DNA of 39,448 nucleotides from a virus. A model generated the notes under the pieces. It worked only from the letters and a program-made list of their open reading frames with translations. It was not told where the DNA came from and did not search any database. The stretch spans positions 1 through 39,448 of IMG/VR virus record IMGVR_UViG_3300035156_000364; one strand, given 5' to 3'. The position numbers were made by a program, and so were the translations under genes. Below, piece after piece: positions 31,199 through 38,252 of the stretch; the stretch's first letter is position 1; the number at the start of each line of letters is the position of its first letter.

Positions 31199-31213
31199 AT
31201 ACACGAATGAATA
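31199..31213. promoter_or_regulatory. Operator-like site ATACACGAATGAATA
   Basis: First of four related 15-mers (consensus ATACVCGAAYGAATR) placed on both sides of the CI gene. It overlaps the -10 of the leftward promoter. The others are at 31222-31236 (same orientation) and at 32368 and 32392 (opposite orientation). Confidence 0.7.
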
Positions 31214-31240
31214 ATCATGCAATACCCGAATGAATGTAAA
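31211..31240 (-). promoter_or_regulatory. Leftward promoter (PR-like) for Cro operon
   Basis: Minus strand TTTACA (31240-31235), an 18-nt spacer and GATTAT (31216-31211). It faces the Cro-like gene and is covered by two operator-like 15-mers, so CI would repress it. Confidence 0.6.
31222..31236. promoter_or_regulatory. Operator-like site ATACCCGAATGAATG
   Basis: Second 15-mer between Cro and CI; matches the consensus at 13 of 15 compared with 32392-32406 (reverse strand). It covers the spacer and edge of the -35 of the leftward promoter. A further GTATGCGCGCGCGTAT element (31252-31267) in the CI promoter spacer may be a third, weaker site. Confidence 0.6.
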
Positions 31241-31241
31241 T

Positions 31242-31270
31242 TTGGTTCTGCGTATGCGCGCGCGTATATT
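31242..31270 (+). promoter_or_regulatory. CI promoter (PRM-like), probably leaderless transcript
   Basis: TTGGTT (31242-31247), a 17-nt spacer and TATATT (31265-31270). The CI start ATG at 31277 lies 6 nt after the -10, so transcription should begin at or next to the A of the ATG. Lambda cI from PRM is also leaderless. The -35 is back to back with that of the leftward promoter. Confidence 0.65.
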
Positions 31271-31276
31271 CTGGAG

Positions 31277-31969
31277 ATGACTATTGGAAAACGACTCGAT
31301 GAAGCGATGAAGGCCGCAGGAATCTTCAGCCAAAAATCGCTCGAAGAAGCCTCAGGCGTCCCTCAGCCTACGATTAGCCGAATACTCAAGAATTCCGGAA
31401 AAAAGGGACCCGAGGCGCACACAGTCAAAAGTCTCGCGGCCGCGTGCGGAGTGTCATTCGAATGGCTTTATGACGGGGTCGGCCCAATGCTTCCCTCACA
31501 TATAGGCGCCGGACTTGGCGGGGTATTTAAAGTCACCAGTGATGAGGCAGAGGGCAACTTTGTTGGCATTAAATTGCTTAAGCGGCAAGTTTATCTCGGC
31601 CTCGATGGAGCCGACGCGGACTGGGAATACGAGGACGAAGTAACCCTCAGCCTGCCTTTGGAATGGCTGAAGACAAAGCGGCTGGCACCCGCCGATCTTT
31701 TCGCTTTCCGAGCCAGCGGCCAGAGCATGTATCCGACAATTCGCGACGGGAACTTGATGGTAGCAACACGCGCCGAAACTCAGCCCGTGGACGGCAAGCT
31801 CTTCGCCGTGAATCATAATGGGCGTCCGTGCGTCAAGCGACTCGAACGCGAAGGCGGCGTCTGGTATCTCTCCTCAGACAACCCGTTACCGGAATATCGG
31901 CGCCGGCCCGTAGACAACGACTCCCGGATCATCGGCAAGATCGTACGGATGGAAACGGATTTCGACTAG
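31277..31969 (+). CDS. CI-like repressor with S24 peptidase domain
   Basis: A 230-aa phage repressor. Residues 1-65 form an HTH_3 domain (SQKSLEEASGVPQPTISRILKN). Residues about 95-225 form the LexA/UmuD-type S24 peptidase with Ser150 (GQSMYPTI) and Lys187 (CVKRLE). An Ala-Gly pair (78-79, GAGL) in the linker is a plausible RecA-stimulated self-cleavage site. The start at 31277 is preferred to 31217 because of the promoter spacing and because the extra residues are basic and lie in the operator region. It represses both early operons. Confidence 0.92.
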   Translation: MTIGKRLDEAMKAAGIFSQKSLEEASGVPQPTISRILKNSGKKGPEAHTVKSLAAACGVSFEWLYDGVGPMLPSHIGAGLGGVFKVTSDEAEGNFVGIKLLKRQVYLGLDGADADWEYEDEVTLSLPLEWLKTKRLAPADLFAFRASGQSMYPTIRDGNLMVATRAETQPVDGKLFAVNHNGRPCVKRLEREGGVWYLSSDNPLPEYRRRPVDNDSRIIGKIVRMETDFD

Positions 31970-32367: not shown

Positions 32368-32382
32368 TATTCGTTCGCGTAT
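32368..32382. promoter_or_regulatory. Operator-like site (reverse of ATACGCGAACGAATA)
   Basis: Reads TATTCGTTCGCGTAT on the plus strand. It ends at the -35 of the rightward early promoter and lies 24 bp from the next copy. Together with the sites at 31199 and 31222 it forms an OL/OR-like pair of clusters flanking CI. Confidence 0.7.
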
Positions 32383-32409
32383 TGCTTTAAGTATTCATTC
32401 GCGTATAGT
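32382..32409 (+). promoter_or_regulatory. Rightward early promoter
   Basis: TTGCTT (32382-32387), a 16-nt spacer and TATAGT (32404-32409, five of six matches to TATAAT). It precedes the 51-aa gene at 32442 and so the ParB-like operon. Overlapped by two operator-like sites. Confidence 0.6.
32392..32406. promoter_or_regulatory. Operator-like site (reverse of ATACGCGAATGAATA)
   Basis: TATTCATTCGCGTAT on the plus strand; 14 of 15 identical to the site at 31199-31213 on the opposite strand. It covers the spacer and -10 of the rightward promoter. Confidence 0.7.
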
Positions 32410-33189: not shown

Positions 33190-35337
33190 ATGAGCAAGTC
33201 GAAAAAATCACCACAAGCAGCACCGGAAACATCCCCGCCAATCGTCACCGCCGGTCTGTACGGCGACTACGAACTGTCCCGCATTCGCATCTCGCCGGAC
33301 AACCGCAAGCGCTTCAATGAAGCCGCGTTGAACGAACTGGCTGAGAGCATCAAGGCCATCGGCATCGCCCAGCCGATCCTGATGCGCCCGGTCACGCCAA
33401 CCGCCGACGCGCCGGCGGACTTCGAGATCGTCGCCGGTGAGCGCCGCTTCCGCGCCTCGAAGATCGCCGGCCGCGACACCATCCCAGCCGTTGTACGCGA
33501 CCTCAGCGACATCGATGCTGCCAAGCTGCGCATCCTGGAGAACCTCCAGCGCGAAGACCCGCATCCGATCGAGGAGGCCGAGGGCTACCAGCTGCTGATG
33601 CTGCAGCACGGCTACAACGCCGACCAGCTGGCCGACGAGATCAAGAAGAGCCGCGCTTATGTCTACGGCCGCTTGAAGCTGCGCGCCCTGACGACCGAGG
33701 TGCGCGAGATGGTTTTTAACGATGTGATCCCCACGTCGACGGCGTTGCTCATTGCGCGAATCCCGGTACCGGCGCTGCAATTGAAGGCGCTGCACGCCAT
33801 CATCCGGCCGGATACGCTCTCAGGTGAGCAACTGTCCGTGCGGCGCGCCGCCGAATACATCCAGCACAACTTCATGCTGGACCTGACCACGGCTATCTTC
33901 AAAACTACAGACGCCAAGCTGGTACCGGCAGCCGGCCCATGCACAACATGCCCAAAGCGTGCAGGCAATGACCCGCTCGTCTTCGAAGGCATTCGTGCAG
34001 ACGTCTGCACGGACCCGGGATGCTTTACAGAAAAGAAGGCGGCGCATCATGCCGCCATCGTCGAGATGGCCGCCAAGAACGGTATCCCGGTCGCTGAGGG
34101 CGAGGAGCGGAGCCAGATTCTGTTGCACCGTTGGGTATCTAGCGCCGAGTACGTGCGTCCTGATGCGAACGTATTTCAATTTCAGCGGAATGCGCCGGCA
34201 ACGAAAAATAGCGGCACGCCCCTGTCGCTCCTCGGTACTGAGGGGCTACCAGCTATTGCGCTGTACACCAAGGACGACGACGGCACCACGCTGCCCTGGT
34301 ACCGTCGGTCCGACATTCAGGCTGCTCTCGAATCAGTAGGTGCATGCGAGACGGTCGAGCAGCATGCAGAGCGCACTCGTGGCGCGTTGAAAACCATCAT
34401 CACGCCGCCTCAGGAACCTAAAGCCGGCGCAGCAGCATTACCGGATCCGTACGTGAAGATCGCCCAGGACGAGAACGCCTTCCGGTTGGCGCTGTACAAG
34501 AAGCTGCGCGCTAAGGGCGCCGCTAGTGGCTTCAGCCTGGATTCATTACGCGCGTTCACGAAGCGCGCTGTCTGGATGATGCCGCTACCGGACGACTTGC
34601 TTGGCGACGTCTATGATTTCGACACCACCACCGAAACCACCATTTGCGAATACGTCGACCAGGCCGGCCTGCCAGAAATTCAGCTGCTGCTTATCGACCT
34701 GGTCGTCGGCGAGGCGCTGGCGACGGACCCGGCTTCAATAAAGAATGGCAGCTGCATCCGCGACGACTTCCGCACCGTGTTGCGCATGGCTGCCCATGAA
34801 GGCATCGATGCCGACGCGCTGCGCGAGGAGTTGTTTCCGACACCGATCAATGTCGACGACGCGACACCAACCGCCCTGGCTGCATTTATCACCAAGTACC
34901 CGCACCGGCTCGCCGAGCTGACGGACGTCGTGCTCAAGCATCCGCGCGGCGACCTGGTGGGCATGCTGGAACGCGCCGCCAAAGAAGCCGGCTACGTGTA
35001 CGCCCGGGGCGGCTTCGAGAAGCTGCCGCCGCTGCTGGTCGGCGTCGATCTGGCTGCGCCGGCAGCCGATATCTGCCCATCACTGAGTACAACCATCGTT
35101 GACCAGGGAGACGCAGGCACGGCCGGCGACGAATTCCTCGGAGAGATGATGGAAGCGCCGGCGCCGGTGCCGAAAAAGCAGCCCAAGGGCAAAGCTGCGA
35201 AAGACAAAACTGTGCTTGCACCGCCCGCGGCCTGGCCGTTCCCGAAATCAAGCGACGGCGTGCGGGCCACCACGCCAGCAGCATCCGCCGACCCAATCCC
35301 GCAAGTCACCGAAACCGCCCAGGAGATTCCAGCATGA
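33190..35337 (+). CDS. ParB/Spo0J-like protein with long C-terminal extension
   Basis: A 715-aa protein, much longer than standard ParB (about 300). Residues about 26-125 form the ParB N-terminal CTPase fold with GERRFRAS (83-90) and ENLQRED (117-123). Residues about 135-190 are an HTH (NADQLADEIKKSRAYVYGRLKL). A Cys cluster (CTTCPKR, CTDPGCF, about 247-285) may bind zinc. The long C-terminus is unrecognised and ends in a Pro/Lys-rich tail. GGAG precedes the ATG. A 16-bp palindrome lies inside the gene at 33995-34010. It may act in replication, partition-like spreading or regulation; no ParA is present. Confidence 0.85.
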   Translation: MSKSKKSPQAAPETSPPIVTAGLYGDYELSRIRISPDNRKRFNEAALNELAESIKAIGIAQPILMRPVTPTADAPADFEIVAGERRFRASKIAGRDTIPAVVRDLSDIDAAKLRILENLQREDPHPIEEAEGYQLLMLQHGYNADQLADEIKKSRAYVYGRLKLRALTTEVREMVFNDVIPTSTALLIARIPVPALQLKALHAIIRPDTLSGEQLSVRRAAEYIQHNFMLDLTTAIFKTTDAKLVPAAGPCTTCPKRAGNDPLVFEGIRADVCTDPGCFTEKKAAHHAAIVEMAAKNGIPVAEGEERSQILLHRWVSSAEYVRPDANVFQFQRNAPATKNSGTPLSLLGTEGLPAIALYTKDDDGTTLPWYRRSDIQAALESVGACETVEQHAERTRGALKTIITPPQEPKAGAAALPDPYVKIAQDENAFRLALYKKLRAKGAASGFSLDSLRAFTKRAVWMMPLPDDLLGDVYDFDTTTETTICEYVDQAGLPEIQLLLIDLVVGEALATDPASIKNGSCIRDDFRTVLRMAAHEGIDADALREELFPTPINVDDATPTALAAFITKYPHRLAELTDVVLKHPRGDLVGMLERAAKEAGYVYARGGFEKLPPLLVGVDLAAPAADICPSLSTTIVDQGDAGTAGDEFLGEMMEAPAPVPKKQPKGKAAKDKTVLAPPAAWPFPKSSDGVRATTPAASADPIPQVTETAQEIPA
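33995..34010. repeat. 16-bp perfect palindrome GTGCAGACGTCTGCAC (copy 3)
   Basis: A perfect palindrome inside the ParB-like coding region, covering the codons just before the CTDPGCF motif. It matches the sites at 699-714 and 24750-24765 at 15 of 16. Two weaker relatives at 7085-7100 and 15489-15504 match at 14 of 16. ParB proteins commonly have sites near or within their own genes. Confidence 0.6.
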
Positions 35338-36038
35338 AAGCCTTCTTCACCACCATCAAAGCATTCTTCAACAGCCTCACCGCTGACGCGCCAGTGGCGC
35401 AGGTGCCCACCAGCTGCGGCAACATCAACGCCCTGCTGCTGCACCTGTGCGACTTCGACTACGAGCTGCACATGTGGGTCCTGCGCTGGCTGGCGTACCC
35501 GCTGCGCAACCCAGGAGCCAAGCTGTCGACCTGCATCCTGGTCAACGGCGGCGATCGCGACGGCAAGTCGATGTTCTTCGCGGACGTCATGGCCGAACTG
35601 TACGGCGACACCGCCCGCCAGCTACGCCCCGCAGCGCTGCAGCCACGCGCCCTGGAGTGGGCGAAAGGCGCCGAGTTCGTCGTCATCGACGGCCGCTATT
35701 CAGACGCCTCCCTGGGGCACTTGAAGCACCTGGTCACCGACTCCGCCCTCTACGCGGTCGCTGCACACAAACGCGCTGCCTCGCTCCATCCAAACCGGAT
35801 GAACTTCGTGTTCCTCACCGGCGAAATCGACTTTTTGCCGACCGACGTCGCCAACCGCCGCTTCGTCGTCATCGAGGCCCCGCCGGCGCGCCAGCCGAAG
35901 TTCTACCTGGCCGCGCGTTTCGAGATCGAGAACGGCGGCGCTGAGGCGTTCCGCGACTATCTTATGCGCGGTATCGACATGGCCGACTTCAACGCCACCA
36001 CGCCCCCGCCAGTGGCGCGCATGAGAGAGGTAGCATGA
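35334..36038 (+). CDS. Orphan helicase-domain paralogue (DUF5906-like), probably degenerate
   Basis: A 234-aa protein homologous to the C-terminal domain of the primase-helicase at 27125-29860: RWLAYPLRNPGAK is identical, and N-x-MNFVFL, RRF/RRY and the DF/NE-like end match. Walker A is GGDRDGKS (72-79, against GDEGSGKN); the Walker B position reads VVIDG where the primase has ADE. The TOPRIM half is missing. It shares ATGA with the ParB-like gene, so the two are made together. It could be a regulator of, or decoy for, the replicative helicase. Loss of the Walker B acid suggests it does not hydrolyse ATP efficiently. Confidence 0.75.
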   Translation: MKAFFTTIKAFFNSLTADAPVAQVPTSCGNINALLLHLCDFDYELHMWVLRWLAYPLRNPGAKLSTCILVNGGDRDGKSMFFADVMAELYGDTARQLRPAALQPRALEWAKGAEFVVIDGRYSDASLGHLKHLVTDSALYAVAAHKRAASLHPNRMNFVFLTGEIDFLPTDVANRRFVVIEAPPARQPKFYLAARFEIENGGAEAFRDYLMRGIDMADFNATTPPPVARMREVA

Positions 36039-36643
36039 GCACCGTCACCCACATCACGATGGATGAAGCACACACGTTCGCCCAGGGGCTGATCGCAGAC
36101 GGTTGGCTGAACAGCGATCCGAATTGCGTAGACACGTTGCACCGGCAGCTGGTGGCTACGCTGGCGGACCGGCTTGAAGGTTCAATTTTCCCGGTCAGGG
36201 GCGTGAACATAAGGCAATGGCTGTCGAGCGGGATCTGTACGTGCCCGAGCGGCGACGGCTCGCTGCGCTGGCCGTGCCCTTCGCACTTGCCCCTTGTCAT
36301 CCCAATCGATCAAGTGTTCCAGGTATCGCCAAGCGCGTGCGATGTGATTGCAGAGCGGCGCCGGCAGATCGAGCAGAAAGACTACCTGCCTGAGCATGAC
36401 GACGAGCATGCGTGCGGTGAACTGGGTGCGTATGCCGCCTTCTTCGCGATGCCCGACGCCACCCGCGACTGGCCAGCGACAGAGACTGGCTACGGCGACA
36501 CGTTCGGCCAGGCCATCGTTCCCGCCGACTGGGCCAGGCCGAAGACGGGTGATCGGCGCCGCGAGCTGGTGAAGGCAGGGGCGCTGATCCTGGCAGAGAT
36601 CGATCGCATGGACCGTGCCGACAAGACAGGCGGCCCAGCATGA
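36035..36643 (+). CDS. Phage protein with EHDDEH domain (MazG-like candidate)
   Basis: A 202-aa protein. The N-terminal half is variable and includes CTCPSGDG...WPCP, a Cys-rich patch. The C-terminal half has the pattern ERRRQIEQKDYLPEHDDEH...GELGAYAAFFAMP...GDRRRELVKAGALILAEIDRMDR found in many phage early genes. The acidic EHDDEH/E helices resemble all-alpha NTP pyrophosphatases (MazG-like), but I cannot confirm. Overlaps at both ends place it in the ParB-like operon. Confidence 0.6.
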   Translation: MSTVTHITMDEAHTFAQGLIADGWLNSDPNCVDTLHRQLVATLADRLEGSIFPVRGVNIRQWLSSGICTCPSGDGSLRWPCPSHLPLVIPIDQVFQVSPSACDVIAERRRQIEQKDYLPEHDDEHACGELGAYAAFFAMPDATRDWPATETGYGDTFGQAIVPADWARPKTGDRRRELVKAGALILAEIDRMDRADKTGGPA

Positions 36644-37335: not shown

Positions 37336-37362
37336 AAAGCCACCACCCGGTGGCTTTTTTTT
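37336..37362 (+). terminator. Intrinsic terminator ending rightward early operon
   Basis: AAAGCCACC-ACCC-GGTGGCTTT followed by five more T. It closes the ParB-like/excisionase operon and separates it from the TIR-like gene. Confidence 0.85.
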
Positions 37363-37430: not shown

Positions 37431-38252
37431 ATGATCGATCTTACAAACGAACCGAGCGTGCAACACAGCTGCGGTATTATCATGCCAATTTCCGCATTCG
37501 ATGGCTATACTGCCGAGCACTGGAGCGACGTAAAGTCAATCATTCAAGAAGCAGTGGAAGGAATCACTAACCCTAAATTTTCTGCTCGTTTAGTTAGTGA
37601 GGCTGACGATGTAGGAATCATCCACAAGCGAATCGTGCAGGGCGTGTACACGTCGGACATTGTAGTCTGTGACGTTAGTGGCAAGAATGCGAATGTGATG
37701 TTTGAGCTTGGATTGCGTCTAGCCTTCGACAAGCCAACAATTATCATAAAAGATGATCGAACCGATTACAGCTTCGACACAAGTGTTATCGAACATATCC
37801 CGTATCCACGTGATCTCAGATTTGGTCAAATTGTTAGCTTCAAAAAGATGCTCGCCGATAAAGTTTTAGCCACTGTGGAGGCTGCCAAAAATCCCGATCA
37901 CTCAACGTTTCTAAAGAGTTTTGGAACCTTTACAGTCGCCAGACTAGAACAAAAAGAGGCGTCAGCGCAAGAGCTTATGATCGACGCTATAAGCGACCTT
38001 CGACGCGACATACGACATTTAAGCCGTATACCATCCTCCAGTAAGCGTAACGAAAGTCCAATCGATGAGAGCTTGCTCAAGGCTCTTATCCGCATTTCCC
38101 TCGAAGAGCAGCCGGGCCAACTCTTGGAGGTGAACGATCAACTGATCAACCGTCTCGCTTCGCTACCCAACATGGCTGAAAACTACTCGTCGAGAGAATC
38201 GTTCACTGCGGCGGTGGATAAGTCTTGCCGACTTATTAACAAAGCTCCGTAA
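37431..38252 (+). CDS. TIR / nucleoside deoxyribosyltransferase-like protein, candidate defence gene
   Basis: A 273-aa protein. Residues about 13-110 form an alpha/beta domain: CGIIMPIS at the first strand, GYTAEHWSDV, RLVSEADDVGIIHKRIVQ, SDIVVCDVSGKNANVMFELGLRLAFDKPTII. The V-C-D-V-S-G-K-N-x-N-V-x-F-E-L-G block is the ligand or catalytic signature of TIR-like and nucleoside 2-deoxyribosyltransferase-like proteins (Glu92 the candidate catalytic residue). Residues 130-273 are helical without an assigned domain. The gene is visibly more AT-rich than its neighbours and lies between two terminators as its own unit, typical of a moron. AAGG lies upstream. No convincing promoter seen. Confidence 0.7.
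   Translation: MIDLTNEPSVQHSCGIIMPISAFDGYTAEHWSDVKSIIQEAVEGITNPKFSARLVSEADDVGIIHKRIVQGVYTSDIVVCDVSGKNANVMFELGLRLAFDKPTIIIKDDRTDYSFDTSVIEHIPYPRDLRFGQIVSFKKMLADKVLATVEAAKNPDHSTFLKSFGTFTVARLEQKEASAQELMIDAISDLRRDIRHLSRIPSSSKRNESPIDESLLKALIRISLEEQPGQLLEVNDQLINRLASLPNMAENYSSRESFTAAVDKSCRLINKAP

Follow-up and report, generated by a model that had tools for sequence, protein, structure and literature searches.

A Stand-Alone D5-Fold Helicase Domain with Lost Catalytic Residues, Encoded beside a ParB-Like Gene in Phages: A Possible Accessory Subunit of Ring Helicases

Introduction

The usual view is that homohexameric SF3/D5 helicases such as poxvirus D5, NrS-1, and SaPI Pri/Rep need no dedicated loader for their assembly. 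Helicase-only forms are found alongside the full form in T7 (gp4B) and in AAV (Rep40/Rep52).

The closest described systems are the helicase domain of the NrS-1 polymerase (PDB 6k9c/6lrb; PMC7102993) and the DUF5906/D5 primase-helicases. R555 and R556 of NrS-1 point at the nucleotide of the neighbouring subunit, and their mutation lowers NTPase activity 7- and 15-fold, respectively. NrS-1 without its Tail is a monomer, and the Tail is required for hexamers (PMC7102993). The VapE-type PriRep and Pri proteins of staphylococcal islands (PDB 7pds, 7ola; PF05272) are active replication initiator-helicases with further domains. An ATPase-dead subunit inside an AAA+ assembly is known from the clamp loaders, where it is represented by E. 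coli delta prime (PMC3331839).

The window is the whole stretch of viral DNA analysed here and is 39,448 nucleotides in length. It encodes a stand-alone protein, referred to below as the orphan, which shares the fold, the P-loop, the basic hairpin residue, and the Arg fingers of NrS-1 and the DUF5906/D5 enzymes. Unlike these enzymes, it has no primase, Head, or Tail, no catalytic Glu, and no sensor-1 Asn, and its gene stands alone beside a ParB-like gene. Its Pfam match and core fold (Z 14–17) resemble those of PriRep and Pri, from which it differs in their activity and additional domains. Like T7 gp4B and AAV Rep40/Rep52, the orphan is a helicase motor without a primase or nuclease half, but those forms are active enzymes, each encoded within the gene for the full-length protein. 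The likeness to delta prime is a functional analogy only: both are non-hydrolysing, and in the clamp loader the neighbouring subunits depend on Arg fingers supplied in trans. At the family level the clamp loader subunits are unrelated to the orphan, which is known here from its sequence and a model.

The Orphan Gene and Its Operon

The features of the window are listed in Table 1.

Table 1. Positions of the orphan, its partners, and the putative regulatory elements in the window.
Feature	Position	Strand	Remarks
Full-length primase-helicase, 911 aa	27125..29860	-	Proposed ring partner; DUF5906 helicase core at residues 621-730; GDEGSGKN / MVADE / FLSNE / DRR
Two CI-operator-like repeats, ATACRCGAAYGAATA	31199..31236	.	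At start of repressor gene
CI-like repressor	31217..31969	+	HTH and S24 peptidase
Two exact copies of the ATACRCGAAYGAATA repeat, inverted	32368..32406	.	Upstream of small ORFs and the ParB-orphan operon
ParB-like protein, 715 aa	33190..35337	+	ParB_N and HTH_ParB; C-terminal WPFP; overlaps orphan by ATGA
Orphan (stand-alone pseudo-helicase), 234 aa	35334..36038	+	Walker A 72-79; D119-G120 at Walker B; hairpin K146; G163 at sensor 1; R175/R176
N-terminal amphipathic helix of orphan, MKAFFTTIKAFFNSLT	35334..35381	+	Occupies place of primase half
Phage protein, 202 aa	36035..36643	+	ATGA-coupled to orphan
Protein without family match, 133 aa	36640..37041	+	ATGA-coupled to 202-aa gene
Intrinsic-terminator-like hairpin and T run	37336..37357	+	Probable operon end

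The orphan ORF is intact and contains no frame break. Its start codon overlaps the stop codon of the ParB-like gene in the ATGA at 35334-35337, which bears out the coupling of the two genes claimed in an earlier note on this DNA. Two further ATGA overlaps, at 36035-36038 and 36640-36643, join four genes in total.

Four copies of the 15-bp repeat flank the CI-like gene, three of them exact and one with two mismatches. With up to three mismatches allowed, the repeat has 9 matches in the window (1.7 expected). The copies look like repressor operators and are treated here as candidates. Because CI-operator-like repeats lie upstream, the sequence suggests that induction is followed by early synthesis of the orphan.

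A gene at 37431-38252, located after the terminator and before the integrase, encodes a protein of 273 aa that weakly matches nucleoside-deoxyribosyltransferases and TIR-like effectors (PADLOC E 1.5e-6). It is a possible cargo or defence gene.

Comparison with the Primase-Helicase of the Same Phage

The orphan aligns by BLASTP with residues 578-779 of the 911-aa primase-helicase, which is the motor core only, with 39% identity and 57% similarity over 203 aa (E 6e-46). Chance or artefact as the source of this likeness is ruled out by the E value and by the existence of 37 relatives. The two proteins have the RWLAYPLRNPGAK and MNFVFL blocks in common, as the earlier note had reported, and the absence of the whole primase half is likewise confirmed. 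Missing as well, and omitted from that note, are about 130 aa C-terminal of the core (residues ~780-911 of the primase-helicase).

The motif blocks of the orphan read GGDRDGKS, VVIDG, FLTGE, and NRRF, and those of the primase-helicase read GDEGSGKN, MVADE, FLSNE, and DRRY. The Walker B acid had been described as lost. This is correct for the catalytic Glu of MVADE, which is replaced by Gly120, but the first acid is still present (VVID119). The sensor-1 Asn of FLSNE is replaced by Gly163 (FLTG163E), a loss that the earlier note missed. Retained are the Walker-A Lys78, the basic DNA-hairpin residue K146, and both Arg-finger residues, R175 and R176. The motif losses agree with the description of the orphan as a catalytically impaired paralogue of the primase-helicase motor domain, as far as sequence can indicate. 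On its own the orphan is not expected to hydrolyse ATP, yet it carries arginines that could act on a neighbouring motor. Of the proposed co-assembly with the active hexamer, the part that stands is that the pattern of kept Arg fingers and a lost catalytic acid and sensor 1 would fit docking onto an active ring.

The hydrophobic moment of the N-terminal helix exceeds that of 99% of shuffles. A short amphipathic N-terminal helix is present in the window orphan and in the majority of the relatives tried.

In Pfam, the orphan matches the VapE-like domain (PF05272) with 32.1 bits, above the curated cut-off of 25, and misses the cut-off of DUF5906 (PF19263) with 25.3 bits against 27.6. Despite this sub-cut-off score, its nearest BLAST matches are DUF5906-type primase-helicases. 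None of the protein libraries searched recognises a distinct family for it.

Structure Model

An AlphaFold2 model built on the orphan alignment has a mean pLDDT of 83 and a pTM of 0.80; about 20 residues at the N-terminus and a few at the C-terminus are ill-defined. Helix 2-15 belongs to the low-confidence portion (pLDDT 52-56). The best match by Foldseek and VIA-align is the C-terminal region of NrS-1, with a Z of 21.3 and an rmsd of 2.5 Å over 199 residues. The matched part of the NrS-1 chain is 400-608, the helicase core only, and ends before the Tail (619-718). The next matches are the SaPI5 primase-helicase (Z 17), the African swine fever virus PrimPol (17), and D5/E5 (14). The model therefore has the SF3/D5-type AAA+ core fold.

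In the alignment with NrS-1, whose residue numbers were counted by hand from the chain offset set by Lys453, Gly120 corresponds to Glu495, Gly163 to Asn543, Lys146 to the DNA-hairpin Lys525, and R175/R176 to the Arg fingers R555/R556. The orphan thus has the trans-acting arginines of an SF3/D5 enzyme and lacks the two features of an active motor, the Walker B catalytic acid (E to G120) and sensor 1 (N to G163). Walker B of NrS-1 reads Asn-Glu, so that the acid kept by NrS-1 is the one lost in the orphan. Since the Tail that NrS-1 needs for hexamers is missing, the orphan alone is probably unable to close a ring, judging from the model.

Distribution and Origin of the Orphan

A direct search gave one close relative with 67% identity. 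Scans with the sister enzyme (the DUF5906-type primase-helicase) and the orphan alignment, followed by a profile search over all open frames, found a stand-alone orphan in at least 37 further viral records (38 including the window). This number is a lower bound, being taken from the best 80 of 447 encoding stretches. The frames of the 37 relatives are intact.

The catalytic Walker-B position over the 38 orphans is Gly in 33, Asp in three, Thr in one, and Glu in one. The sensor-1 Asn is absent in 34, and each orphan is missing at least one of two residues, this Asn or a catalytic-position acid. The Walker-A Lys is present in 35 and missing in three relatives. Arg occupies the R175 position in 36 and the R176 position in 37, so the Arg fingers are among the best-kept functional residues of the family; K or R is found on the DNA hairpin in 29. 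In the 67 full-length enzymes aligned with the orphans, all these residues are retained nearly without exception. Gly120 is conserved at 91% (weighted, rank 50 of 232 columns), and the inactivation is therefore old and fixed.

A maximum-likelihood tree was constructed from the 38 orphans together with 27 primase-helicases, some of them distant enzymes of Stenotrophomonas, Pseudomonas, Halomonas, and Moraxella phages. A single branch (100/100) separates all orphans from the primase-helicases, among which the window primase-helicase is placed. The orphan had been described as a degenerate copy of the phage's own helicase, and neither part of this description holds. Because the orphan clade is separate from all 27 primase-helicases, a copy of the phage's own enzyme made recently in this lineage is ruled out. 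Decay is refuted for the family by the intact frames, the 37 relatives, and pairwise dN/dS values among orphans of 0.15-0.57, which are those of purifying selection; a relic confined to the window should have a broken frame, and its frame is whole. The single clade, the purifying selection, and the conserved position beside ParB together identify the orphan, on sequence grounds, as an old, maintained pseudoenzyme. It evolves faster than the primase-helicase: between the window and L003, identity is 67% for the orphan and 95% for the primase-helicase.

A tblastn search with the orphan gave no match above 60% identity in named phages, and among the matches listed there the underlying features are primases, split primases, or unnamed proteins. 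Pattern scans of bacterial genome contigs, with short conserved patterns that can miss relatives, found none. In the open-access literature, a scope that leaves most subscription papers outside, no account of this kind of protein turned up. One further fragment was seen in L159 (13253-14287), where an Rv2179c-like exonuclease has the N-terminus NFVHVTSSRDFLPKDTQERRWFVVDN, apparently an in-frame fused piece of a second orphan copy.

The ParB-Like Neighbour

The window ParB-like protein resembles Noc and the PRTRC ParB, in both cases below the family cut-offs; for PRTRC_parB the score is 132 bits against 278.6. It is thus a distant relative of the ParB of the PRTRC cassette, which also has a ThiF-related member. 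The window differs from that cassette in this sub-cut-off score and probably also in its gene content, as none of the PRTRC genes A, B, C, E, F, and ThiF was noticed adjoining the orphan. The window contains no match to a ParA-type ATPase and no Spo0J-type parS site at up to three mismatches. The window orphan protein has no plasmid match, and together with the lack of a ParA-type ATPase match in the window this rules out a plasmid partition pair.

The ParB-like gene accompanies the orphan in 26 of the 37 relatives, directly upstream and on the same strand. The pairing thus recurs in 27 of 38 phages including the window, and does not extend to the other 11. Two of these 11 carry a PRTRC cassette. 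A small ORF of about 80 codons sometimes lies between the two genes. It is conserved (e.g., LSEHTISAIARALLDARRDLSK...) in L021, L024, L096, and others, and is absent in the window.

The reverse case, a ParB-like gene without an orphan, is found in VarioGold, Aval, and six IMG/VR phages (L075-L080). L075-L080 have the same ParB and primase-helicase, and the orphan is therefore not essential. The WPFP near the C-terminus is conserved in many phage ParB-like proteins whether or not an orphan is present. Its occurrence in orphan-less phages rules it out as an orphan-specific docking site.

Orphan and ParB distances correlate with r 0.40 (27 pairs, confounded by kinship), and orphan and helicase distances with 0.39. 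This mirror-tree test does not discriminate between ParB and the helicase as the partner of the orphan.

Ring Helicases in Orphan-Bearing Phages

Orphan-bearing records above 6 kb number 36, and all but one of them also encode a D5-fold primase-helicase, which is DUF5906-type in 24 (23 of the 37 relatives and the window) and VapE-type in 11. The two other records are fragments shorter than 6 kb. The VapE-type enzyme (~840 aa) replaces the sister enzyme in G049-G055, G061, G065, G066, and G068, and is found at the corresponding place in all nine genomes whose gene order was read. The exception is G048 (41 kb), in which no DUF5906-type, VapE-type, or DnaB-type helicase was found in addition to the orphan.

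The orphan is only loosely associated with the sister helicase, since it persists with the VapE-type enzyme in 11 phages. It is thus untied to the sister enzyme, yet almost every genome that encodes it also encodes a D5-fold ring helicase, a co-occurrence to which phage lineage may contribute. Exceptions to the Arg-finger pair occur in L060, L100, and L115, all of them phages without the DUF5906-type enzyme. They amount to 3 of 14 phages without and none of 24 with the sister enzyme, a weak, post hoc signal (one-sided Fisher p ~0.04 by hand).

Proposed Role

We favour, tentatively and at somewhat short of an even chance, a role for the orphan as an ATPase-dead accessory subunit of the phage's D5/SF3-fold ring helicase that helps to load or anchor it at ParB-marked DNA. 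The basis is that the residues acting in cis are lost and the Arg fingers acting in trans are kept, as expected of a subunit in an AAA+ assembly. The orphan would dock side by side with a primase-helicase subunit and offer its Arg fingers to the ATP site of this neighbour. An open or part-formed ring could in this way be completed or activated by the orphan, itself no motor. The co-made ParB-like protein would position the orphan on phage DNA, through the amphipathic N-terminal helix or by direct contact, and helicase loading or restart would then take place at ParB-marked sites. Against this role, docking would have to tolerate the much more distant VapE-type enzyme, G048 has an orphan and no ring helicase that was found, and 11 of 38 phages are without a ParB-like gene. 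Conserved Arg pairs may, moreover, serve a structural purpose.

Confidence in the accessory subunit is limited because a partner of ParB alone is at least as simple an explanation for an orphan that outlasts the replacement of its sister helicase. Such a protein would bind ATP without hydrolysing it, would work with the ParB-like clamp in loading, locking, or silencing, and would belong to the ParB or PRTRC module and not to the replisome. This is unlikely, although 27 of 38 orphans have a ParB-like gene immediately ahead of them, two phages have the orphan as the last gene of a PRTRC cassette after ThiF, and the window has no ParA-type ATPase that could be found. The distance correlation with ParB is matched by that with the helicase, 11 phages lack the ParB-like gene, and the kept DNA hairpin and Arg fingers are features of a ring helicase. 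Some ring motors are poisoned by dead subunits, and the orphan, an ATPase-dead homologue that shares most genomes with an active ring enzyme, could also enter the primase-helicase ring to lower unwinding and limit replication. We consider such a throttle, put forward in the earlier note, quite unlikely. A pure poison has no need of Arg fingers, and their retention leans towards recruitment or activation; the operon is apparently early and CI-repressed, so that the protein would be made when the phage wants to replicate; and the orphan lacks the Tail required for NrS-1 assembly.

An unusual but active NTPase, in which Asp119 or another residue substitutes for the Glu in an independent helicase or loader, would account for the mostly retained Walker-A Lys and first acid and for the four relatives with an acid at the catalytic position. 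It is improbable given that three relatives lack the Walker-A Lys, that 34 of 38 have lost sensor 1, and that the active NrS-1 has the Glu and not the first acid. A decoy, a helicase look-alike that binds a host sensor or inhibitor directed against phage primase-helicases, would suit the accessory early region with its variable neighbours and the faster divergence of the orphan. This reading is very improbable: the orphan matches no defence family, Arg fingers would be dispensable in a decoy, and a constant set of core residues is maintained across the family. The loss of the catalytic residues and of two domains could also mark a functionless, decaying relic of a duplicated helicase domain. 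The intact frames of 37 relatives, their single old clade, the dN/dS values, and the conserved operon place render this extremely improbable. The accessory subunit is thus preferred over the throttle, the partner of ParB only, and the defence decoy.

More broadly, and with appreciably less confidence than for the window itself, the orphans might be an unnamed phage family of dedicated pseudo-subunits for D5/SF3 rings of two helicase kinds. Their Arg fingers would cap, open, or load the ring, steered by a ParB-like clamp or, in some phages, by the ubiquitin-like PRTRC cassette; we regard this as a possible but rather doubtful generalisation. If this generalisation is true, it would amount to a mode of helicase loading that is not known among SF3 helicases. 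A widespread co-encoded pseudo-subunit that selectively retains its trans-acting residues would open ring assembly and loading to direct tests in a small phage system, and would assign ParB-like proteins without ParA a part in phage replication. The proposal also supplies a function hypothesis for a gene whose product has no family of its own in the protein libraries searched.

Other Neighbouring Genes

The accessory neighbours of the orphan vary and include reverse transcriptases, C5 methylases, and PRTRC genes. In L109 and L060 the orphan ends a PRTRC cassette and lies directly behind the ThiF gene; these are the two of the 37 relatives with ThiF near the orphan. The PRTRC genes beside it are E, C, F, B, A, and ThiF in L109/G060, and B, A, and ThiF in the partial set of L060/G048. 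Complete or near-complete PRTRC cassettes with E2-, E1-, and JAB-like proteins are thus present in viral contigs (L109:2994-7891 and L060:6459-9164).

A reverse transcriptase of ~480 aa is located behind a 117-codon ORF in L106 (4451-6204) and L108 (6111-7882), and also in L107, L113, L119, and L129. This layout near the orphan suggests a candidate diversity-generating retroelement. C5 DNA methylases lie beside the reverse transcriptase, near the orphan, in several of these loci.
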